Notes: generated from the sequence alone by a model not told the origin. 50,596 nt of DNA from Bdellovibrionota bacterium (GCA_040386775.1 JAZKEU010000010.1:1-50596); one strand, 5' to 3'; counted from the first letter of the stretch, positions 13,231-31,351 are shown. Numbers and translations are program-made.

Positions 13231-14139
13231 TTATTTAAAATTAAAATAATTGTTTTTTATTAAATGTTCGGTGAAGGCGGAGTGAATCGTTCTGCGGCCG
13301 GACATTTTTCTTTCAAGCATCCAAATGTGATCGGAAAATTTACGTTCGGTGGGTCTGATGATTTTTACCGATGAAGAAAAATTAGAGCTATCTAAAACAA
13401 ATTTAGGAACAATTCCAATGCCTACGCCTTCTCTTACCAGTGCTAAAACCATTTCCGCAGTTGAAGCATATGCGCGAATCGGAAGGTTGTGTGGACGCTT
13501 TTTAAAATGTAAAGCTAGCCAGTTGCGAATGGGTTGGTGATTTAAATAATATTCTATCATGGGAGCTTTTATAATTTCATCGAATGTCGGTTTTTCTGGA
13601 AGGCGGCCCTTAGAAGAAATTAGAACGAGTTCTTCTTTGTATACTGGTCGAGACTCAATAACTCTTGTCTGTACCGAGGGAAAAATTGAAAAACATAAAT
13701 CAATACTGCCTTTTTCTAAAAGACGTTGGAGTTCGCTGGGAGTTTCGAAGGTCATTTTGACTTGAGCATAAGGATGCTTTTTTAGAAAAGCACTCAATAT
13801 CGGGGCCAGTTGGGACTTGGCAAATTCAAGATAGGAGCCAATCTTTAAAACACCTTGGACTCGATCTTTTTCATTTTGTAGGTTCTGCACAGCTTGCGTG
13901 AAACCTTTGTGATAAGTTTGAAATTCGCGATGAAGACTTAACCCAGTTTCTGTAGGGACTAATTTTTTACCGATGCGATGAAAAAGTGGAAAGCCTAGAG
14001 AATGTTCAAGCACGGCGATCGTTTGACTGAGGGCCGAAGGAGTCACGTTCAGCACTTCGCTCGCTAAACGATAGTTACCAGAATCTATAATCTGGCAAAA
14101 TACGGCAATTTTGTTGATATCTACATTATTAAGTTTCAC
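13231..14139 (-). CDS. LysR-family transcriptional regulator
   Basis: A 302-aa LTTR. An N-terminal winged helix-turn-helix (residues 8-65: FCQIIDSGNYRLASEVLNVT, PSALSQTIAVLEHSLGFPLF) is followed by a substrate-binding domain from about residue 90 to the end. It is transcribed divergently from the folate cluster with 95 bp between. The classic LysR arrangement makes the CADD-folB-folKP-ligase operon its likeliest target, together with its own gene. The inducer is unknown; a folate or pABA-related ligand would be attractive but is only a guess. Confidence 0.85.
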   Translation of the reverse strand: MKLNNVDINKIAVFCQIIDSGNYRLASEVLNVTPSALSQTIAVLEHSLGFPLFHRIGKKLVPTETGLSLHREFQTYHKGFTQAVQNLQNEKDRVQGVLKIGSYLEFAKSQLAPILSAFLKKHPYAQVKMTFETPSELQRLLEKGSIDLCFSIFPSVQTRVIESRPVYKEELVLISSKGRLPEKPTFDEIIKAPMIEYYLNHQPIRNWLALHFKKRPHNLPIRAYASTAEMVLALVREGVGIGIVPKFVLDSSNFSSSVKIIRPTERKFSDHIWMLERKMSGRRTIHSAFTEHLIKNNYFNFK

Positions 14140-14160
14140 TAAACGTTATGTTTAGGTAAT

Positions 14161-14192
14161 TTAGATTTTCTAATCAATATAATTCTAATCAA
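14161..14192. promoter_or_regulatory. Candidate LysR binding region
   Basis: Between the LysR gene and the folate cluster is the dyad TTAG-ATTTT-CTAA, which overlaps a direct repeat of TCTAATCAA (copies at 14169 and 14184). LysR regulators bind T-N11-A-type dyads in such divergent gaps. The assignment rests on position and symmetry only. Confidence 0.4.
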
Positions 14193-14234
14193 ATGGCTTT
14201 AAATCTTTCTTAAATCTCTAAACAGGAGGCCATT

Positions 14235-14900
14235 ATGCATACTTTCGCTCTAGCACTTAAACCGCTTCATCTTCTCAATCACCCTTTCTATCAGGATTGG
14301 ATGTCGGGCAAGCTGACGAACGAAACTCTTCAGGATTACGCGAGCCAATACTACTCTCACGTCAGTGCATTTCCCCGCTACATCAGCGCCATCCATTCCC
14401 AATGTGAAAATGAAGAAGATAGAAAAATTTTACTCGAAAATTTAAATGACGAAGAAGGAATCAATTACGGAACATCTCATCCCGAACTCTGGTTAAGATT
14501 TGGGGAAGGATTAGGAGCAAATCGTGAAGCGATGAAAACGGCCAATTCTAGAGCCGGCATTGAAAATGTCGTTGCTACATTTTTCAATCTGGCGAGATCG
14601 TCTTTCCACGAAGGACTGGGTACGCTTTACGCGTATGAATCGCAAGTTCCGGAAATTGCGGAATCTAAGATTCAAGGATTGAAAGCGCACTACCAAATCA
14701 CTGATGCGCGAACGCTAGAGTTTTTTGAAGTTCATAAATCCGCCGATGTTTACCATCGTCAAACAATTGAAGGAATATTGGATCGATTACCGGAAAAAGA
14801 AAAGAAAGAGGCCTTGGTGGCAGCAGAACTGGCGGCGAAATCGCTTTGGAATTTCTTGACTGAAATTCATGAAAGACCAGCACATGTCTCTTTACAATGA
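14235..14900 (+). CDS. CADD-like dimetal oxygenase, probable self-sacrificing pABA synthase
   Basis: A 221-aa all-helical protein of the TenA/PqqC fold, CADD subfamily. In Chlamydia, CADD makes p-aminobenzoate from its own side chains and replaces PabABC. Visible features are HPFYQDWMSGKL near the N-terminus (Tyr19 is the likely counterpart of the sacrificed Tyr), metal ligands in NLNDEEG (Glu74) and TSHPELW (His82), YAYES (Glu135), HKSADVYH (His167, Asp171, His174), and Lys145 in ESKIQGLK near the position of the chlamydial amino-donor Lys. Residue equivalences are from memory, not an alignment. AGGAGG lies before the ATG. It heads an operon with folB, folKP and a CofE-like ligase, which supports folate metabolism rather than a death-domain role. 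TenA thiaminase is the less likely alternative. Confidence 0.82.
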   Translation: MHTFALALKPLHLLNHPFYQDWMSGKLTNETLQDYASQYYSHVSAFPRYISAIHSQCENEEDRKILLENLNDEEGINYGTSHPELWLRFGEGLGANREAMKTANSRAGIENVVATFFNLARSSFHEGLGTLYAYESQVPEIAESKIQGLKAHYQITDARTLEFFEVHKSADVYHRQTIEGILDRLPEKEKKEALVAAELAAKSLWNFLTEIHERPAHVSLQ

Positions 14901-15282
14901 TTCCAAACCTAGAGTTTGCGCCTTAATAATTGAGGAATTGAAGTTTGCGGTGAAGCTTGGTTGCACAGCAGATGAAAGAGCGACCCCTCAAGAGGTGAGG
15001 GTTTCGATTGAATTGAGGTGTGAGGCTATTCCTCTTGGAGCGTTTTCCGATTCCATCGAAGATACGATTTGCTTTGCCAAGGTCAATGAAGTGCTGAAGG
15101 AATATATCGAAACCAGAGAGTTCAACTTGATCGAACGCATTGGTCTAGAGAGCTTTGGTCTTTTGCGCGAGCTTACAAAAAATCACCAGGTGCAAATTGG
15201 GGTGCGAGTCCACAAAGTTCAACCTCCGATTCCTAATTTAATTAAAGGTGCCCATTTTACTTGTGGAGATTTTATTTTATGA
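14884..15282 (+). CDS. folB: Dihydroneopterin aldolase
   Basis: Converts 7,8-dihydroneopterin to 6-hydroxymethyl-dihydropterin. The family pattern is present: an early VCALIIEELKFAVKLGCTADER segment (IIEELKF...G...ER), the central CFAKVNEVLKEYIETREFNLIERI with the catalytic-region ERIG, and the C-terminal VRVHKVQPPIP ending, which corresponds to the V.V.K..API motif. The ATG at 14884 overlaps the CADD gene by 17 bp; another ATG at 14869 would add five residues. Its stop overlaps the folK start as ATGA. About 132 aa is normal. Cotranslation with its neighbours is very likely. Confidence 0.88.
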   Translation: MSLYNDSKPRVCALIIEELKFAVKLGCTADERATPQEVRVSIELRCEAIPLGAFSDSIEDTICFAKVNEVLKEYIETREFNLIERIGLESFGLLRELTKNHQVQIGVRVHKVQPPIPNLIKGAHFTCGDFIL

Positions 15283-16553
15283 GATGTTTCATCGGTGTGG
15301 GTTCAAATTTAGGAGACCGCCAGCATCACCTCGAAAGAGCGGCGCAGTTTCTGAAAATGAAATCACCTGGGTTTTTTAAAGCATCGCCAGTTTATTCTTC
15401 GCCAGCGCTTGTTCCGGAAGGAGCGCCGGAGGCTTGGCGGAGTTCGTTTTTAAATGCGGTCTTTGAAATGGAATGGACTGACTCGCCGATGTCTTTGCTT
15501 GCGCTATTGAAGACCATCGAAAAAGATTTGGGTCGTGAGCCTGCTCCGCAATGGGCTCCCAGAATCATTGATTTGGATATTTTATTTTTTGGCGAAAATA
15601 AAATTCAGGAAGATAAGCTGACCATTCCTCATCCTGGAATTTGCCATCGATCCTTTGTGCTGGATCCATTAAAGCATTTAGCGCCATCCTTAAAACTTCC
15701 TGGTGGTACAGAATCTATTTTAACGAGATCAAGAAAGCTTCCGCAGAGTTCGCCATTGTGGATGGGAATTTTAAATCTCACTCCCGATTCCTTTTCGGAT
15801 GGCGGAGAATATTTGAATCCTTCAGAATGGATTGAAAAAATCAAACTGTTCGAAAAGTCCTTAGTGGGCATGATAGATATCGGAGCTGAATCCACTCGTC
15901 CAGGAGCCAGCGCTATATCTGCCAAAGCAGAGTGGGAAAGATTAAAGCCAACACTCGAATTTTTAAAAGATCGCTATCGAACACGAATCTTGCACCCTAG
16001 AATCAGCATGGATACAAGAAACGCGGAGACCGCCGAGGCGGCGCTAGAACTGGGTGCAGATTGCATCAATGATGTCAGCGGTGCAGCTGATCCCAAAATG
16101 TATGAGTTACTACAGAGCAGTACGTGCGAATATGTTCTGATGCACAGTTTGTCCGTTCCCGCCGACCCCAAGCACACTTTGCCGCCAGAAGCCGATGTGA
16201 TCTCTGAAATTAAGAACTGGGCCTATGAAAAATTAAATGAGCTCTCTCAAAAAAGAATTGCTCTAGATCGAGTAATTTTTGATCCAGGCTTGGGATTCGG
16301 AAAAACCGCGGAACAATCGCAAACCATAGTCAGAAGGATCGACGAATTTTTCGATTTACCGGTGCGTATTTTAGTGGGTCACTCGCGAAAATCATTTATT
16401 CAAAAATGGAGTGATCAGCCTGTCATAGACCGCGATTGGGAGAGCGTGGGAATCTCACTTCAGATGGCCGCGCGGGGAGTGGATATTTTGAGAGTGCACG
16501 ATGCCCATCACCATATCCGCGCGCACGCTGCTTACCTGGAGAGTATGAAATGA
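15279..16553 (+). CDS. folKP: Bifunctional HPPK-dihydropteroate synthase (FolK-FolP fusion)
   Basis: A two-domain folate enzyme of about 424 aa. Residues 1-150 are 6-hydroxymethyl-dihydropterin pyrophosphokinase (MRCFIGVGSNLGDR; NAVFEMEW; APRIIDLDILFF; IPHPGICHRSFVL). From about residue 160 it is dihydropteroate synthase (MGILNLTPDSFSDGG; DIGAESTRPGA; NDVSGAADP; DPGLGFGKT; GHSRKSF), which joins pABA to the pterin. The two activities are consecutive steps, so the fusion channels the intermediate. The start at 15279 overlaps the folB stop by 4 bp, and the end overlaps the following start by 4 bp. FolE and FolA, which the pathway also needs, are not in this window. Confidence 0.93.
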   Translation: MRCFIGVGSNLGDRQHHLERAAQFLKMKSPGFFKASPVYSSPALVPEGAPEAWRSSFLNAVFEMEWTDSPMSLLALLKTIEKDLGREPAPQWAPRIIDLDILFFGENKIQEDKLTIPHPGICHRSFVLDPLKHLAPSLKLPGGTESILTRSRKLPQSSPLWMGILNLTPDSFSDGGEYLNPSEWIEKIKLFEKSLVGMIDIGAESTRPGASAISAKAEWERLKPTLEFLKDRYRTRILHPRISMDTRNAETAEAALELGADCINDVSGAADPKMYELLQSSTCEYVLMHSLSVPADPKHTLPPEADVISEIKNWAYEKLNELSQKRIALDRVIFDPGLGFGKTAEQSQTIVRRIDEFFDLPVRILVGHSRKSFIQKWSDQPVIDRDWESVGISLQMAARGVDILRVHDAHHHIRAHAAYLESMK

Positions 16554-17275
16554 AAAAGCTAAGTGTACAGCCAATCCAAACTTCTATTTTTAGAGAGGGT
16601 GATCTTGCAGAATTTATAATTCAATCTATTCCCAAATCCCTAGTACAAGAAGAAATGGTGTTGGCGATCACTTCAAAAATCGTCAGTGTTGCTGAGAATC
16701 GTTTTATTTCTCGAGATAAAATAAGCAAAGAGGATTTAGTCAAACAAGAAGCCGATGTGTTCCTCGGAGAAATTGGTTACGGTTGTTTTTTGACAATAAA
16801 AGATGGCCTCCTGATTCCTTCTGCGGGGATAGATGAATCCAACTCAGAGCAGGGAGATTATATTTTATATCCAGAAAATCCTTTTCAAAGTGCCGAAAAA
16901 CTTTGGCTCAAACTGCGCGAGCGTTGGCAGATCTCAAAGCTTGGAATTGTGTTGACCGATTCCCACACAACTCCACTACGACGAGGCGTAACCGGAATTG
17001 CTTTATCGTATTGGGGATTCCAACCACTACGAAAGCTCATCGGCACAAAAGATCTTTTCGGACGCGAGCTACAAATGACAAACATGAACCTCGCCGATGG
17101 AATCGCCGCCTCCACCGTCCTGATGATGGGAGAAGGCTCCGAGTCTACACCACTAGCAATTGTCGAAGGTCTCGATCTGGAGTTCTGCGAGGTATCGAGC
17201 CTTGATGAGCTCTCAATACCTTTAGCAGAAGATTTGTATGGACCTATCTTGAGTCCATATATTTCAAAAATCTAA
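16550..17275 (+). CDS. CofE-like gamma-glutamyl ligase, probable folylglutamate synthase (FolC2-like)
   Basis: Resembles coenzyme F420-0:L-glutamate ligase (COG1478). The N-terminal LAITSKIVSVAENRFI matches the lKVVSiAEgr motif. The core LTDSHTTPLRRG, then TGIALSYWGF, DLFGRELQMTNMNLADGIAAS and VLMMGEGSESTP follow the CofE order of D-x(7)-RxG, DxxGRxL..T..ADxxA and the MGxG block. F420 is not expected next to folate genes. In Chlamydia a COG1478 protein beside CADD substitutes for FolC, and the same context here suggests it adds the glutamate tail to dihydropteroate or folate. ATGA overlap with folKP. It is shorter than FolC (241 aa) and unrelated to it. Confidence 0.8.
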   Translation: MKKLSVQPIQTSIFREGDLAEFIIQSIPKSLVQEEMVLAITSKIVSVAENRFISRDKISKEDLVKQEADVFLGEIGYGCFLTIKDGLLIPSAGIDESNSEQGDYILYPENPFQSAEKLWLKLRERWQISKLGIVLTDSHTTPLRRGVTGIALSYWGFQPLRKLIGTKDLFGRELQMTNMNLADGIAASTVLMMGEGSESTPLAIVEGLDLEFCEVSSLDELSIPLAEDLYGPILSPYISKI

Positions 17276-17461
17276 GGAAACTCAAAAATTACAAAAGTCA
17301 TGACCTTGCTCCAAACGGTTTCAAAGAGTAATTAAATCCAATGTATTGGGTCTCCGTCAGTACTAATGCGTAAGGTCGGTCGAATCCTGGTGCGTTTAAT
17401 TTTAGAATTGAATTCGGGCCAGATATGGATTTTCATCTTTGCCATAAGAGGGGGATTTTTT

Positions 17462-19771
17462 ATGTTTAAAAGCGCATTTATTTTTGCAATTCTATTCGTG
17501 ATGGCCGTTATCGGTACTCAAGCAGACGCCGCCACAAAATATTATAGATGGACAAATCAATATGGTTTAAGTGACAGCTTGCAGCCGATTTTGACTCAGT
17601 TGAACCAGACATCGAATTTGAATCTAGTTTACGCTGATTTCAAAAATGCTGAACACCGTGATCTAGCAAAGTATCGTTTCACAACGTTCTTGCAAATGTA
17701 TGAAGGCATTCCCGTTAAAGGTGCCATGATCCGTACATGGGTGGACAACAAAACCGGTTCGCTAATACAAATGGAAGCTCATCTTGAGGCTCCTGCGGAT
17801 AGAGAGCTTAGAACTCTAACTTTAAAAACAAAAAAAGTTGGCGGAACAGTTATTTTAGGAATGAACTTTAAAACGCTAACTAAAAACCTAGATACCATGA
17901 AGTACGTGCGTGAAGTGGTGTTGAAAAATATCGACGACAAGACAATCGGAAAAATCGATACACGCGATCAATGGGATGGAAACGATCTTCAGGCCGTGAT
18001 CCAAGTTACGGGCAAACGTGGCGTGCATACGATCATTGTTTCGCACTTCTCTAAAAAAATCGTATCGAACTCTTACAAACCTTTCCCCAATGCAGATATC
18101 GCGGCGTTGGTTTATCCTATATACGAAGAATCAGAGGGTGATCTAAAGCCTCAAGAAAGAGTTCCAGTTACACTAAAAAATATTTTAAATGTCAGAAAAC
18201 AAGTGAGCAGTGATCCCTATGCAGCTCTTCGCAATCGTAGTTATCTCTACGATTTGCACGATACCAATTTGGCGGAAACGAGTGAGGGTCAAGCGCAAGG
18301 TTATTGGTCATTTGCATGGCTAGTAAGAGCGGGAAAAGCATTATTCGAAGCTCTTCCGTGGGAAGAAAACTCTTATGCCAATAAAGGAATTTATCTTGAA
18401 GGTCGTTATGCTACGATCAGCTTGCATCCTAGTATTGCAAAAGTTCAGGGTTTAAAATTTCCTCTAGCTTATTCTGGTCACATGAATTTTATGGAATCAG
18501 AAACCATGGTGAATGGAAAATCTGTCTGGGGAGTGACGCCAGGATCTGCATATCGTGGACAGTTGTTGTCGGATTCTTCAAGCGCCCTTCTCCGTCCGGC
18601 GACTCGTTTGAAAGATCATAACTTTGTTCAATACATCAATGAAGGATTTGATGAGATTCAAGTTTACTATGCAGTAGACCGTTTGATGGAATCACTTCAC
18701 AGTATGGGATTCACGGATCCGGAGCTTTCAACTCGTCCGTTCCATGCCATGCTGTACGACACAGACATCAGTATGAAGGACAATGCGTACTACTGGAACG
18801 ACACTATCAACTTTACGACTTACTCTCCGGACGCACAAAACTACGCGCGTGATAACTCTACGATCTGGCATGAACTTGGTCATGGAGTCATGGATCGTCT
18901 CATGGGTGAAATGATCACCTTGGCAGACACCGGTGGCTTGAGCGAAGGTATGGCCGATTTCGTGGCAAAACTTGTAGTGGAAGACGTTACGGACAATCAA
19001 CCCTTCGAAGGTGAAGATAAATTCAGAATCATCAACCAAATTGGTTTTAGCTTAACAAATGAAGTTCATGATGATGGTGAAGCCTACGGTGGATCGATGA
19101 GAGACATCATGGAAGCAGCGGTCGCTAAGGATGCGCAAAATGGTTTAAAGAAAATGACGGACCTTACGTTGGATGCGATGAGACTCACGCGCAATCATCC
19201 AGGTTTAACTGCGAACGATTGGTTTGAGCATATGGTGTTTGCAGACAGTCTTGGCTCTCCAGGCATTCGTGCTCCGGGGGAGATGAGAGAGCTGATCTTG
19301 AGCTCAATTGCTCTCCGTAATTTCAACTTGGATAATTCTCCTACGGCAGATTTCAAAATCGTAGTGGATGGAAAAGATGTGCTGACAGGTGAAAGTTTTG
19401 GTTCTCGTCCAAAGCCTTACTTTGTCGAATTGAAAGCAGATCAAACTTCTGAGCATCAATTGGATATGAGTTTACACAGTACCGCCAACTACAAATTCAA
19501 GTATCCATTGAAAGTGGAAGTGAGCTTCAACAATGGACCTTTGCAAGGTGCAGTAAGATGGTTGGATGAAGCGGCGGGTGTAAAGACTTTCACGCTCAAT
19601 AGCGAAGCTGAAAAGGTGAGCTTAAAAGTGGGAGCCACTGGCGCATGTGATTTTGTTAATCGTGATGATGGAAGTTGTTCAGACTTCTTGTACATTTTGG
19701 TAACAAACGCAGGTGAGACGAAGCCTTCCGCGAAGAAGCGTTTTTATATGCGTGTGAAGCCACTATTATAA
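17462..19771 (+). CDS. Secreted thermolysin-like (M4/M36-type) metalloprotease
   Basis: A 769-aa protein. The ATG at 17462 follows GAGGGGG and opens a signal peptide (MFKSAFIFAILFVMAVIGTQADA); the longer frame to 17366 is rejected. After the signal comes an FTP/PepSY-type propeptide (FLQMYEGIPVKGAMIRTWVD) that probably inhibits and folds the enzyme. The zinc site is HELGH at residues 470-474 with the third ligand Glu495 in GGLSEGMADF, a gluzincin pattern closest to fungalysin/thermolysin proteases. The C-terminal about 180 residues are beta-rich with a Cys pair (ATGACDF, DGSCSD). It is likely exported to degrade external (perhaps prey) protein. It is preceded by about 186 bp without a gene. 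Confidence 0.87.
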   Translation: MFKSAFIFAILFVMAVIGTQADAATKYYRWTNQYGLSDSLQPILTQLNQTSNLNLVYADFKNAEHRDLAKYRFTTFLQMYEGIPVKGAMIRTWVDNKTGSLIQMEAHLEAPADRELRTLTLKTKKVGGTVILGMNFKTLTKNLDTMKYVREVVLKNIDDKTIGKIDTRDQWDGNDLQAVIQVTGKRGVHTIIVSHFSKKIVSNSYKPFPNADIAALVYPIYEESEGDLKPQERVPVTLKNILNVRKQVSSDPYAALRNRSYLYDLHDTNLAETSEGQAQGYWSFAWLVRAGKALFEALPWEENSYANKGIYLEGRYATISLHPSIAKVQGLKFPLAYSGHMNFMESETMVNGKSVWGVTPGSAYRGQLLSDSSSALLRPATRLKDHNFVQYINEGFDEIQVYYAVDRLMESLHSMGFTDPELSTRPFHAMLYDTDISMKDNAYYWNDTINFTTYSPDAQNYARDNSTIWHELGHGVMDRLMGEMITLADTGGLSEGMADFVAKLVVEDVTDNQPFEGEDKFRIINQIGFSLTNEVHDDGEAYGGSMRDIMEAAVAKDAQNGLKKMTDLTLDAMRLTRNHPGLTANDWFEHMVFADSLGSPGIRAPGEMRELILSSIALRNFNLDNSPTADFKIVVDGKDVLTGESFGSRPKPYFVELKADQTSEHQLDMSLHSTANYKFKYPLKVEVSFNNGPLQGAVRWLDEAAGVKTFTLNSEAEKVSLKVGATGACDFVNRDDGSCSDFLYILVTNAGETKPSAKKRFYMRVKPLL

Positions 19772-26207: not shown

Positions 26208-26843
26208 ATGAAAAATAAATTATTAATTATGACGATTGCTTTTTTAGCAACAATCGAGAGCCATTATGTCTGGGCCGGCGAAGTAGGGAATGGTCCTGAT
26301 CTAAAAGGTAGCGCAGCTCCACTGAATACCGATAAAGAAGTGCCTATTGGAGTATTAAAGCAAATCAATAAAAAATGTGAAGATCAACTAGTAGAAGACT
26401 TTGTTTATAAGACTACGGGACAAGTTTGTAAAGATGCGAATTGCCTTCTTAAACCCAATTCTTCAAAAATTTGGATGGCTAGTGTAGATCGGTACAATAA
26501 ACAATGCCGTATCCAGGTGATATCTGAAGTTCAAACAATCAGCAGATTTTCTCATGCTTACTATGATCAAAATAACATACCTCAGACAAATTATTCAGCT
26601 AAAAAACCGGGTCTGCTTCCTTATTTGGAAGGAGAGGCTACGGAAAAAGTTAACGATTACAATGAGCTCGGGATACAGACAAAATCAGGCGTGATTGCTA
26701 AGGGCATTCGTTTGGTTCGAGTTCTTCCCGAGAATTACACGGCATACTACTGGAATTGCGAACGCGAAATGATAACTAAAGTTCCCGTAGATTTAAAATC
26801 CGTTGAGGCTTGTTTGATTCAAAATTTAAATGAGTATCCATGA
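26208..26843 (+). CDS. Secreted Cys-containing protein, unknown function
   Basis: I do not recognise a family. A strong AAGGAG precedes the ATG. It has a signal peptide (MKNKLLIMTIAFLATIESHYVWA) and a mature region of about 188 aa with six cysteines (KCEDQ, VCKDANC, QCRIQ, NCERE, ACLIQ), enough for three disulfides. TGQVCKDANCLLKPNSSKIW recalls small extracellular beta domains, but no motif is diagnostic. It lies 14 bp after the TIGR02147 gene and overlaps the HExxH gene by 4 bp, so it probably belongs to one operon and may be secreted together with, or act on, the HExxH protein. Confidence 0.75.
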   Translation: MKNKLLIMTIAFLATIESHYVWAGEVGNGPDLKGSAAPLNTDKEVPIGVLKQINKKCEDQLVEDFVYKTTGQVCKDANCLLKPNSSKIWMASVDRYNKQCRIQVISEVQTISRFSHAYYDQNNIPQTNYSAKKPGLLPYLEGEATEKVNDYNELGIQTKSGVIAKGIRLVRVLPENYTAYYWNCEREMITKVPVDLKSVEACLIQNLNEYP

Positions 26844-27805
26844 TATTTTTGATTAACTTTCTATTGCTTTTTTCATCCCCGGCTTTGGCCTGTCCTCTCA
26901 AGGCTCCTAGTGAATTACTAGGAGCCTTGAGAGCGTCGAGCGCAGTTACGCTTTCGGTCCAGCTGTCGAGATCAAAATTCATTACCGAGAGCACTTATAG
27001 TTATATTGACCATCTCACAGATTATTATCTGAACGACTATCCCCAAGTGCAAAATGTAGGTGCGTGCTTAGAACAAGAGCTTTCACCGGTGATGGATCTA
27101 AAGGCTCTGTTTGCACGTTCGCTGATGCAAAAAACATTAACGAAGCTTTCGCAGTCCAAAAGTTTACTGGCCCAAAAAATTGCGACGATCACTAACAACA
27201 GTGAAGTTTTGATGTTCCAAATTTTTAGTAAAGAGCTTCCAGGTACGCAGAGAATTGCAGAGGTGGATCGGTCTACGGGAGTTATCTCCGCTAGCCCTTC
27301 AAAAATTCCACCCAACGAATGGCCGCTAATATTTGTACATGAAATTCTACATCGAAGAGATGAAACCCTGCAGAGCTCCATCGTTACCTACAATAATTCT
27401 GAAAATATCACTCAAATGATGGCCCTATTAAAAAGTAATAGAAAGTGGGAAGCCCTAATGCCAAATGAACAACAGCTCATGCTCGATCAGATTGAGCGTG
27501 CGTTAAATCGTGGATTTTTGGCCGAGTTCAGAGCATGGACATTAACATTGCAAGTCTATCAAGAATGGCTTGAGCAAAAAGAAATTATAGCCATTCCGTG
27601 GGTTGAAGAAATTTTACTCAATAAAAAAGAAAATCAACCTCTGGCAGATTATATTTATAATTATCTTTATCCACGTTTCACAAAGCCCATCGCGGAGGGT
27701 GTTTATGCTTCCGACATCTGGCTGACAGCATACGATCTAAAAATAAAAGAATTGCAAAACTCAGACAAGACTTCCTTAATAAAAAAAGCTTTTGGAAAAC
27801 TCTAA
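26840..27805 (+). CDS. Secreted HExxH protein, putative metallopeptidase
   Basis: A 321-aa exported protein: short signal peptide (MIFLINFLLLFSSPALAC), the Cys being right at the probable cleavage site. A clear FVHEILHRRDE motif at about residues 170-180 gives the two His and Glu of a zinc-peptidase site. A third ligand may be the Glu in FLAEFRAWTL some 60 residues later. The remainder is helical with no family I can name, so catalysis is inferred from the motif and its export. The ATGA start overlaps the upstream gene. Codons 19-31 encode both arms of a perfect 17-bp hairpin, giving the near-repeat K-A-P-S-E-L-L-G-A-L-R. The G+C is similar to its neighbours. Confidence 0.72.
   Translation: MIFLINFLLLFSSPALACPLKAPSELLGALRASSAVTLSVQLSRSKFITESTYSYIDHLTDYYLNDYPQVQNVGACLEQELSPVMDLKALFARSLMQKTLTKLSQSKSLLAQKIATITNNSEVLMFQIFSKELPGTQRIAEVDRSTGVISASPSKIPPNEWPLIFVHEILHRRDETLQSSIVTYNNSENITQMMALLKSNRKWEALMPNEQQLMLDQIERALNRGFLAEFRAWTLTLQVYQEWLEQKEIIAIPWVEEILLNKKENQPLADYIYNYLYPRFTKPIAEGVYASDIWLTAYDLKIKELQNSDKTSLIKKAFGKL
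26895..26933. repeat. Perfect 17-bp inverted repeat inside the HExxH gene
   Basis: CTCTCAAGGCTCCTAGT and ACTAGGAGCCTTGAGAG pair without mismatch around the loop GAATT, starting 55 bp after the ATG. Neither strand has a following T run, so it is not an intrinsic terminator. As RNA it would be a very stable stem in the early coding region. The part encoding it lies at the signal peptide/mature boundary. Confidence 0.85.
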
Positions 27806-28616: not shown

Positions 28617-29147
28617 GTGACAAAATTGTACTCCGTATTAATGATGTGCCTTTTTTTAAGCAACTCTTTAGCTATGGCTAAAAATTCAGTAGATATAAAA
28701 GTTTCTAAAACTTTTTCTATGGATTTATCTTTTCAGTCTACGGCTCCATTGGAAATGCCTTCTTTGAATTCCAAATTATTTAAAGCAGATAATGTTCTGG
28801 GCTTAAGTAGTAAAAATCAATTATTGGTTGTTCACAATAAACCTCTCACGCTTGCCAATAAATACAGTGTGGAAAGATATTGGGACAAGAGCAGAAAGCA
28901 AACGCGCTCCTTTGATAAAGATGAAAAAAATCAAGGTTGTACAAAATTTTCTAATCGTATGTATCAATGCTCAAGAGATGTAAATCAAAATGGAAAATAC
29001 ATTTCAGAATCCATTTATTGGAACGCAAAAAATGATTTGGTTTTACTGAGAGTTTCCTCAAATAAATCTACAGAAGATTCTAGAAAGATTTTAAGCTCCA
29101 TAAAAATTCAAGCAGACTCTAGGTTGCCCGCAGGAGGAACAAAGTGA
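28617..29147 (+). CDS. Secreted protein, unknown function, 176 aa
   Basis: A GTG-started gene with a signal peptide (MTKLYSVLMMCLFLSNSLAMA). The mature part is Lys/Ser/Asn-rich. It contains a Cys pair (QGCTKF, MYQCSRD) about ten residues apart and ends in an amphipathic segment (SRKILSSIKIQADS). I see no known family. The ribosome-binding site is weak (GAGAAA), so the start is not fully certain. Its end overlaps the start of the next secreted-protein gene, whose GGAGG lies within it, so the two are coupled. Confidence 0.7.
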   Translation: MTKLYSVLMMCLFLSNSLAMAKNSVDIKVSKTFSMDLSFQSTAPLEMPSLNSKLFKADNVLGLSSKNQLLVVHNKPLTLANKYSVERYWDKSRKQTRSFDKDEKNQGCTKFSNRMYQCSRDVNQNGKYISESIYWNAKNDLVLLRVSSNKSTEDSRKILSSIKIQADSRLPAGGTK

Positions 29148-31351
29148 TGAGAATCAAATTGTTACTTCTGACATCACTTATATTCTCGAGTTCAAATCTT
29201 TACGCTCGTTCCTATGATCCAACAAATGATTTATTTTTTGCTTTTGGTAGTAGATGCAAGGGCAAAGGCTCTGTCAATGATTCGGCCTTTAACGATGGCG
29301 CAGGTCTTAAGTACATAGCCGAGAGTATTCGTGATGATGCTTCTTGCAAGGGCATTACTGGCGCATTAAATGATATTCAAAACTTGAACGTTCCTAGATT
29401 ACTTAGAGACCGTAACTCTGAAGATGATCTAGAGTATATGTCCATACAGGCAAATGATTTAGAATTGGCAATTCAAGCAGAGATGAGTTCTGCCACTCCA
29501 GATATGGACTATATTGGTGCTCTAAAAGCGGAATTGGTTCTAGCGAAGGTGAATATTGCAAAGTCGCAAAAATTATCTAACCAAGAGCAGACAAGAAGAA
29601 GATTAGAGACAATTGATAATTTTCAAAAATATTCCAATACACTCTTTGCACGCCTTAAACAAAGCGATGAATGCTTGACCAAGAATCCAAATATTGCGGC
29701 ACAAATTGGAGCGCAAATTTTGGGTTTGGGTTCAACGATGGCTTCTGGTTATGTCGGATCTTTGATGCTTGCCACGGGAAGTATGGTAGATAACTACGTT
29801 TCATTTGTAAGGCAACACAAGATTGGAAACAAGATCAAGGACGTAACCAACAATCGCCTTGGCGAAGCTGTGGGTTGCTCATTAGAAGGATTGTCGTATA
29901 CCTATTGCCAAGCTCGCGATGTGGAAACAATTATTAATTTTAATAAATCTAAAAACAAAGATGTGAAATCAAAACCCAGCTGGTTGGATGGTATTGGAAT
30001 TATTGGCCAAGATGTCCAATCTTATATGGATTGGATCACTCAGGTGGATTCGGGAGCGCCAGCAGGAACCATCGGTCGAGCGGATGACAAGAAGAAGGCT
30101 TTTGCCTTGCAGAATGATTTGCGTTCTGCAGGAATTGATATCGAAGGTATATTGAATACCGCTAAGAACACTGTTGCCCAAAGCAGTAATAAAATTGAAG
30201 CGACCAAAAAAGCCCTCAATGATATTGCGACGAAGTTTCAGGTTTGTGATACTTTTGGTAATTGCGGGCTGTCCTCAGGCGGACCTTTTGGAAATGCTTT
30301 TGCCTCTGATCCTGGTTGCGGACCTTTTATATATCTTTATTCAAAAGGTGTAGATCGAGTCAGAAAAGACAACGGATTGATTCCTTGCAAAACCTATGTC
30401 ACAACACAGTATCCAATCATCCCTGATATCAATACTGAAGTTGGTCCTCTCGTCGATGGCCTTGTTGCTGAAGCAACTCAAAGTATCAATATTCAACTCT
30501 CTCAGGTGAGTGAGAGCAATCCTAATCTTGTTATATCTAAGGTAGATGCACGAACTCAGAATCGTAGATCTGCAAGAGAGTTTTTAAATTCCTCATTGGC
30601 TTACTTAGAAAACTTACTTGGTGATAGCAATAGCATTGCCCAAAGAAAAAATCAGCGTGAACTGATAGAAAAAACAAGGGGCCAAATTGTCAATGCACTT
30701 AAGATCATAGATAGAACTGAAGAGGGAAATACAGATCCTTCCAAGAAAGTTGCAGATCTTTCAAAAGAGTTAATCCCACTGGGAGATACATTTGCAATTC
30801 CAAAATCATTGAGTGAAATTATAAATCAAGATATCGATCAAAAAATTAGCCAAGGTCAAATTGATGAGAATTTGGCCGCACTCATGCAACTCTCTTCAAA
30901 TGACAGTCTGGGAGAGTTGATAAAATACTACATCGGTCTTGAAGCTGCGAAAACTCAATCTCGATCCGCGAAAGAATTAACCCGCACAAATTTATCCGCT
31001 CTTTCATCTATCTTTAGCGACAGTTTAAAAAATCGCATGGAAAAATTAAGTCGCCAAGCCAAAGATGATCCCGATGCCAAGGAGTCTTTGGCACTACTAT
31101 GCATGCAAACTCTTGCGGTGCCTGAATCTCCGAAGATGGGAAAATTGGATGTTAAGCAATATTGTGACGGACAAGTTTATAAAAGTATTTATGACGAATC
31201 AAAAATCTCTATGAACTACAATGATCTTTCAAGAAAAAGTTATCCGGAGAGAGCATGCGCAGTCTACGATTTCTACCGAAAGTCATATCTCTATGGCCTC
31301 AAATCCAATCGGGGCAACTCGCCAACAGATAAAGCAGAAGGTGCAAAGTAA
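29147..31351 (+). CDS. Large secreted Cys-rich helical protein, unknown function
   Basis: A 734-aa exported protein with no family I recognise. GGAGG lies 9 bases before this ATG; a GTG three bases earlier is equally possible. After the signal peptide (MRIKLLLLTSLIFSSSNLYA) it is mostly helical, with long Gln/Asn/Ser/Lys-rich helices. Cys are scattered throughout (SRCKGKG, ASCKGI, DECLTK, VGCSLEG, TYCQAR, VCDTFGNCG, DPGCGPF, LLCMQT, QYCDGQ, RACAVY), consistent with many disulfides. A Gly/Ala hydrophobic patch (AQIGAQILGLGSTMASGYVGSLML) at about residues 185-210 may insert in a membrane. It is translationally coupled to the 176-aa secreted protein, so the two may form a complex. Confidence 0.75.
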   Translation: MRIKLLLLTSLIFSSSNLYARSYDPTNDLFFAFGSRCKGKGSVNDSAFNDGAGLKYIAESIRDDASCKGITGALNDIQNLNVPRLLRDRNSEDDLEYMSIQANDLELAIQAEMSSATPDMDYIGALKAELVLAKVNIAKSQKLSNQEQTRRRLETIDNFQKYSNTLFARLKQSDECLTKNPNIAAQIGAQILGLGSTMASGYVGSLMLATGSMVDNYVSFVRQHKIGNKIKDVTNNRLGEAVGCSLEGLSYTYCQARDVETIINFNKSKNKDVKSKPSWLDGIGIIGQDVQSYMDWITQVDSGAPAGTIGRADDKKKAFALQNDLRSAGIDIEGILNTAKNTVAQSSNKIEATKKALNDIATKFQVCDTFGNCGLSSGGPFGNAFASDPGCGPFIYLYSKGVDRVRKDNGLIPCKTYVTTQYPIIPDINTEVGPLVDGLVAEATQSINIQLSQVSESNPNLVISKVDARTQNRRSAREFLNSSLAYLENLLGDSNSIAQRKNQRELIEKTRGQIVNALKIIDRTEEGNTDPSKKVADLSKELIPLGDTFAIPKSLSEIINQDIDQKISQGQIDENLAALMQLSSNDSLGELIKYYIGLEAAKTQSRSAKELTRTNLSALSSIFSDSLKNRMEKLSRQAKDDPDAKESLALLCMQTLAVPESPKMGKLDVKQYCDGQVYKSIYDESKISMNYNDLSRKSYPERACAVYDFYRKSYLYGLKSNRGNSPTDKAEGAK

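Follow-up and report, generated by a model that had tools for sequence, protein, structure and literature searches.

The Chlamydia protein CADD and the Nitrosomonas europaea protein NePabS use a Tyr and a Lys of their own chain to form 4-aminobenzoate (pABA) (PMC11965152; PMC13108848). In Chlamydia, a COG1478 ligase clustered with CT610 (CADD) was described in 2007 as a replacement for FolC, and the C. trachomatis member of this family, CT611, complements an Escherichia coli folC mutant (PMC1971073), the pABA role of CADD being settled after that description (PMC11965152). In the part of the literature that was searched, no description of this route in Bdellovibrionota was found. Here, we report the analysis of a stretch of 50,596 nucleotides from a Bdellovibrionota bacterium (GCA_040386775.1 JAZKEU010000010.1:1-50596), hereafter referred to as the window, in which a four-gene operon encodes a CADD-type protein, FolB, a FolK-FolP fusion (FolKP) and a COG1478 ligase. 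With a probability of about 0.88, we consider that this operon provides the pABA branch and the late de novo folate steps, with PabABC and FolC replaced by CADD and the COG1478 ligase, respectively. The chemistry is already known; the lineage, the regulator and the exchange of FolC and ligase at one position are new, and the presence of this known alternative route to folate in the lineage is well supported.

The CADD-type protein and its operon

The initial annotation described four tightly overlapping genes (CADD, folB, folKP and a COG1478 ligase), a description borne out by profiles and coordinates. All four are located on the plus strand between positions 14235 and 17275, with overlapping ends and positions in agreement with earlier gene calls, and were assigned as follows:

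14224-14229, plus strand: AGGAGG ribosome-binding site of the CADD gene, read from the sequence
14235-14900, plus strand: predicted CADD-type self-sacrificing 4-aminobenzoate synthase, 221 amino acids (TIGR04305, residues, model)
14884-15282, plus strand: FolB, dihydroneopterin aldolase (profiles; alternative upstream ATG at 14869)
15279-16553, plus strand: FolK-FolP fusion, HPPK and dihydropteroate synthase (profiles)
16550-17275, plus strand: COG1478/CofE-fold gamma-glutamyl ligase, proposed FolC replacement (profiles, context, model)

The CADD protein passes TIGR04305 with 274 bits (cut-off 200). Its alignment with CT610, in which the initial annotation had proposed looking for the sacrificed Tyr/Lys pair and the metal ligands, placed Y19 at Chlamydia Y27 and K145 at Chlamydia K152, reportedly the residues that are consumed (PMC11965152; PMC13108848), and all six 3His/3carboxylate dimetal ligands were present (E73, H82, E135, H167, D171 and H174). 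These ligands correspond to E81, H88, E142, H174, D178 and H181 of the C. trachomatis protein (CtCADD). Y19, K145 and the six ligands are invariant in 24 CADDs sampled over many phyla, as are Y35 and Y39, which match Tyr41 and Tyr45 of NePabS. Papers on the CADD and NePabS metal site give the same 3H/3C composition (PMC11965152; PMC13108848), and Tyr41 has been reported as essential and Tyr45 as important (PMC11965152). CtCADD Y141 and Y170 are both Phe in NePabS (PMC13108848); at these positions the window protein carries Y134, Tyr as in CtCADD, and F163, Phe as in NePabS, and is thus intermediate between the two, so that no metal preference can be called from residues. CADDs with such a mixture of Mn/Fe- and Fe/Fe-linked residues are useful for the question of metal choice. 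Further, the AlphaFold model of the window protein (pLDDT 95) has the Fe/Mn CtCADD structure (8va9) as its top match in the PDB, with a TM of 0.90, an rmsd of 1.4 and 37% identity. Homology supports the assignment of the window CADD as a self-sacrificing pABA synthase, which would form pABA in a single turnover. Plasmid carriage of CADD was also considered and rejected, only distant relatives of up to 30% identity being found.

Following CtCADD and NePabS, the dimetal site of this CADD-type HDO protein would, with O2, cleave the protein's own Tyr19 side chain and take the amine from its own Lys145, yielding one pABA per protein molecule. FolE, encoded elsewhere, would feed FolB and FolK to give the pterin diphosphate that FolP would couple to pABA; the COG1478 ligase would add glutamate instead of FolC, and FolA, also encoded elsewhere, would reduce the product. 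The gene arrangement is compact, with an overlap of 17 nt between CADD and FolB (32 nt if the upstream ATG is used) and 4-nt ATGA overlaps at FolB/FolKP and FolKP/ligase. FolKP passes both of its equivalog models, folK TIGR01498 (108 bits, cut-off 54.1) and dihydropteroate synthase (DHPS) TIGR01496 (250 bits, cut-off 162.6); FolB passes Pfam FolB (60 bits, cut-off 31.8) and the domain model TIGR00526 (49.6 bits versus 45.05), and is below the equivalog cut-off of TIGR00525 (61.7 versus 72.15 bits).

Folate genes in the host genome and across the order

Gene absences in the host genome (G000; 2.86 Mb, 98.4% complete) and its relatives were called from profile searches. No FolC was above cut-off in G000, the best matches reaching at most 36 bits, consistent with Mur ligases. 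PabB was likewise absent from this genome: the sole chorismate enzyme found scores as the isochorismate synthase MenF and adjoins MenD, MenH and UbiE (three neighbours named by eye), and was rejected as a PabB candidate. The PabA profile matched CarA and GuaA only, which were rejected as PabA candidates, and CofD of the F420 pathway was found neither in G000 nor in any of 99 genomes of the order. FolE and FolA were located at C12:63016 and C3:18297, which makes the route complete except for dihydroneopterin triphosphate dephosphorylation, a step for which no search was made. Thus, neither a complete pabABC and folC set nor CofD of F420 synthesis was found and the Tyr/Lys pair is in place, the three points on which the initial annotation had let its proposal stand or fall. 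That pABA may be made by a suicide enzyme and the glutamate added by a CofE relative, as it had put forward, is supported by these residues together with the missing PabA, PabB, FolC and CofD.

The 99 genomes constituted our comparative set, with genes called by profile cut-offs. DHPS was above cut-off in 20, and these split exactly into 8 with PabB (best-scoring as PabB) and 12 with CADD above cut-off, none having both and none neither; PabB was not found in the set outside the DHPS-positive genomes. This partition was cleaned by the rejection of PabB-like matches in G013, a genome lacking DHPS, and in G002, which corresponded to TrpE and MenF, respectively. A thirteenth CADD genome (G091) is an apparent exception, in which folB and the start of folK are present and the contig then ends. 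FolC accompanies PabB in 8/8 genomes (ligase in 0/8), and the ligase is present in 11/12 CADD genomes, the exception being G006 (locus L107, contig C39, 5947-9527). Its operon reads CADD-folB-folKP-FolC, with FolC in the usual ligase slot, and stands between the two arrangements for the late step. Furthermore, folKP is followed by FolC in 9/9 genomes with FolC only, and by the ligase in 9/11 DHPS-positive genomes with the ligase, a natural gene-for-gene swap at one position, and every DHPS-positive genome has FolC or the ligase. The exclusion between FolC and ligase had a p of 0.0014 among the 20 DHPS-positive genomes (uncorrected for kinship), and was not significant by itself over all 99 genomes (Fisher p 0.10).

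Several observations weigh against the proposed replacement of PabABC and FolC. The host genome is a draft of 26 contigs, and it encodes one class IV aminotransferase (PabC fold) resembling branched-chain/D-amino-acid (BCAT/DAAT) transaminases, so that some room is left for a PabC, though no clear one was seen. The ligase is apart from folKP in G001 and G064, and FolC, encoded elsewhere, coexists with an operon ligase in G048, G051 and G054; these three are metagenome-assembled genomes (MAGs), one with 8% contamination and two only 57-64% complete, and their double content may reflect a binning error or a true redundancy. The PabB/CADD state changes about twice on the FolKP tree, which means few independent events; the counts are therefore not independent and a paired test has no power. 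With 241 of 350 bits for TIGR04132 and 133 of 180.65 bits for CofE TIGR01916, the ligase reaches neither curated cut-off. Finally, the G+C content of the operon is 44%, versus 39% for both the whole window and the LysR gene next to it, and an older transfer may thus have taken place.

Two side observations concern other genomes of the order. In G095 (contig C163, 1679-2933), FolA (DHFR) immediately follows the ligase in the same orientation and lengthens the operon. Neither FolC nor a COG1478 ligase was above cut-off in 50/99 genomes, including G002, which belongs to the same family as G000. From most of the order, folate synthesis seems to have disappeared entirely.

Origin of the operon and proposed role of the ligase

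A genome scan confirmed 355 CADD loci in many phyla, and the best 80 of these 355 include Bdellovibrionota, Pelagibacterales, Rickettsiales, Ignavibacteria, Armatimonadota, Marinimicrobia and others. The cluster had been called Chlamydia-type; the same two replacements are indeed found here, but the label is too narrow for such a distribution. Trees of CADD, FolKP and ligase, as suggested by the initial annotation, were drawn from loci that include neither Chlamydiota (not among the best 80) nor Nitrosomonas, and the order was apart from Rickettsiales in all three, with full support for FolKP and ligase. A recent horizontal acquisition of the whole operon from Chlamydiota or Rickettsiales, which would fit both the elevated G+C content and the same gene set in three Rickettsiales loci (CADD, folB, folKP and ligase, differently arranged, in L136, L137 and L152; CADD with a ligase in L150), is very unlikely in view of this separation, of the different gene order and of a LysR gene found only in Bdellovibrionota. 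Moreover, the majority of bdellovibrionotal CADDs cluster together (SH-aLRT 93 in a quick tree, no bootstrap), which favours inheritance and loss within the order over recent transfer in this tree without Chlamydiota. From the initial alternative of an ancient route or a horizontal transfer, recent transfer is therefore the part not favoured. One contig titled as an Alphaproteobacteria MAG (L099) has a CADD placed among Bdellovibrionota, with 63% identity to that of the window, and is probably mislabelled.

The ligase passes PF01996 (135 bits, gathering threshold 25), and its best NCBIfam model is TIGR04132, at 241 bits versus 133 for CofE. Having missed the TIGR04132 cut-off, it is not to be filed in that family; the Rickettsiales protein of L136 misses it as well (336 bits), so that the cut-off looks narrow. 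Its AlphaFold model (pLDDT 90) has CofE structures as the only significant fold matches (2PHN, TM 0.85), and D95 and D137 are conserved, aligned with D109/D150 in 2G9I numbering. A role in F420 synthesis was rejected, as no CofD occurs in any of the 99 genomes. The ligase may nonetheless act on a substrate other than folate, such as an F420-like or pterin cofactor, with folates left as monoglutamates or extended by an unrecognised ligase; its CofE family membership, its TIGR04132 score and its only solved fold match would agree with this reading, which we regard as highly unlikely, since CofD is missing, the ligase occupies the folC position after folKP that FolC itself holds in G006, FolC or ligase is present wherever DHPS is, and the homologue CT611 can stand in for folC in E. 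coli (PMC1971073). Judged by its context, with folate genes around it and FolC and CofD absent from the genome, the ligase would work like CT611. Similarly improbable is that the CADD-like protein has some other HDO activity, pABA or folate being imported and the operon linkage being historical: HDO enzymes are functionally diverse (PMC13108848) and folate synthesis is apparently lost in most of the order, but the sacrificed Tyr/Lys, the six ligands and the functionally important aromatics Y35 and Y39 (PMC11965152) are conserved, the model matches CtCADD at TM 0.90, and CADD is present exactly where DHPS occurs without PabB, the sole apparent exception (G091) being cut by a contig end.

The ligase is also found in 23 genomes without DHPS, of which 0/23 have FolC above cut-off, and the 19 of these DHPS-less ligases that were placed in the tree are interleaved with operon ligases. 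The loci L036-L057, from several Bdellovibrio-type genomes without DHPS and FolC, keep the COG1478 ligase; in L038 the ligase is preceded by an isocitrate/isopropylmalate dehydrogenase-like gene (named by eye) rather than by folate genes. DHFR is kept in nearly all genomes of the order. Retention of the ligase without DHPS suggests that polyglutamylation activity is what is selected, and that the ligase in these genomes may glutamylate salvaged folate. In Rickettsia, where the TIGR04305 protein has been called 'frC', FolC is reportedly kept while host-derived folate is used, and polyglutamylation was proposed as the reason (PMC5615194). One prediction is that Bdellovibrio would glutamylate prey-derived folate with a CofE relative.

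The candidate LysR regulator and comparison with known systems

Next to the operon, we identified a regulator gene and a conserved intergenic element:

13231-14139, minus strand: LysR-type regulator gene (PF03466 and PF00126), divergent from the operon
14139-14177, no strand: putative LysR operator, with the dyad CTAAAC-N5-GTTTAG (14139-14155) followed by TTTAGATTTTCTAATCAA (14160-14177)

The operon had been placed behind a LysR regulator; the gene is present, but it is divergent on the minus strand rather than upstream in the same direction, its start lying 95 bases before that of CADD. LysR orthologues (E<1e-45) occur in 6/99 genomes, all of them with CADD and all divergent beside it, that is, in 6/13 CADD genomes versus 0/86 others (Fisher p 1.5e-6, uncorrected for kinship); further copies lie beside CADD in L108, L113, L114 and L160. 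An ungapped comparison of nine loci revealed an intergenic footprint of 44 columns with 51 bits, versus 19 +/- 1.3 in shuffles, the first column of which touches the LysR start codon and after which conservation drops to near background in the intergenic DNA just downstream. In its pattern, CTAAAC-N5-GTTTAG and then TTNAGATTNNCTWATCAA, it resembles paired sites of the LysR type, and we consider it a putative operator. An exact 18-bp match of the footprint is unique in the genome. A wider LysR regulon was rejected, as the half-site with one mismatch occurs at chance in the genome (3 further matches versus 3 in the control), and operator matches with two mismatches inside the window were also at chance level. 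On this sequence evidence, the divergent LysR probably controls the operon through the conserved candidate operator, and such control would set the copy number of the single-turnover enzyme. These elements are candidates for the regulator and the operator of an enzyme giving one product molecule per protein. We place at even odds the joint proposal that the CADD-linked LysR, found only in Bdellovibrionota, adjusts the amount of the single-turnover pABA synthase to the need for folate, and that the CofE-like ligase is the main folylpolyglutamate synthase of the order, having replaced FolC after folKP and having been kept in the 23 DHPS-less genomes to glutamylate prey folates.

With regard to other genes of the window, an 801-aa protein (17366-19771) directly follows the folate operon and has a weak M36 metallopeptidase match only, and two open reading frames of 735 aa (29144-31351) and 321 aa (26840-27805) have no Pfam match at E<0.001.

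Our results place the predicted self-sacrificing pABA route and a CofE-like ligase in one operon of a non-Chlamydia lineage, and an odd but known folate route thereby gains a second well-documented home, in a relative of the predator Bdellovibrio. The window resembles C. trachomatis CT610/CT611 in having CADD for PabABC, a COG1478 ligase for FolC, clustering of folate genes and no F420 genes (PMC1971073), as well as the sacrificed Tyr/Lys and metal ligands of CT610; it differs in its single CADD-folB-folKP-ligase operon with a divergent LysR and operator-like footprint, in a ligase under the TIGR04132 cut-off, and in the presence of FolE in G000, whereas Chlamydia lacks folE and folE2 (PMC1971073). 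NePabS (NE1434) is likewise a self-sacrificing pABA synthase outside Chlamydia with conserved sacrificed residues (PMC11965152) and shares with the window protein the Phe at F163, and not the Tyr at Y134, which is as in CtCADD. The Rickettsiales loci L136, L137, L150 and L152 also combine CADD with a COG1478 ligase, and most have folB-folKP, but their gene order is different, no divergent LysR orthologue accompanies them, and they form separate clades. Finally, Archaeoglobus fulgidus CofE (2PHN, 7ULD) shares the fold of the ligase (TM 0.85) and its two conserved Asp, and is distinguished from it by 31% identity, by the folate operon context of the window ligase and by the lack of an F420 pathway (CofD) in the genomes of the order.

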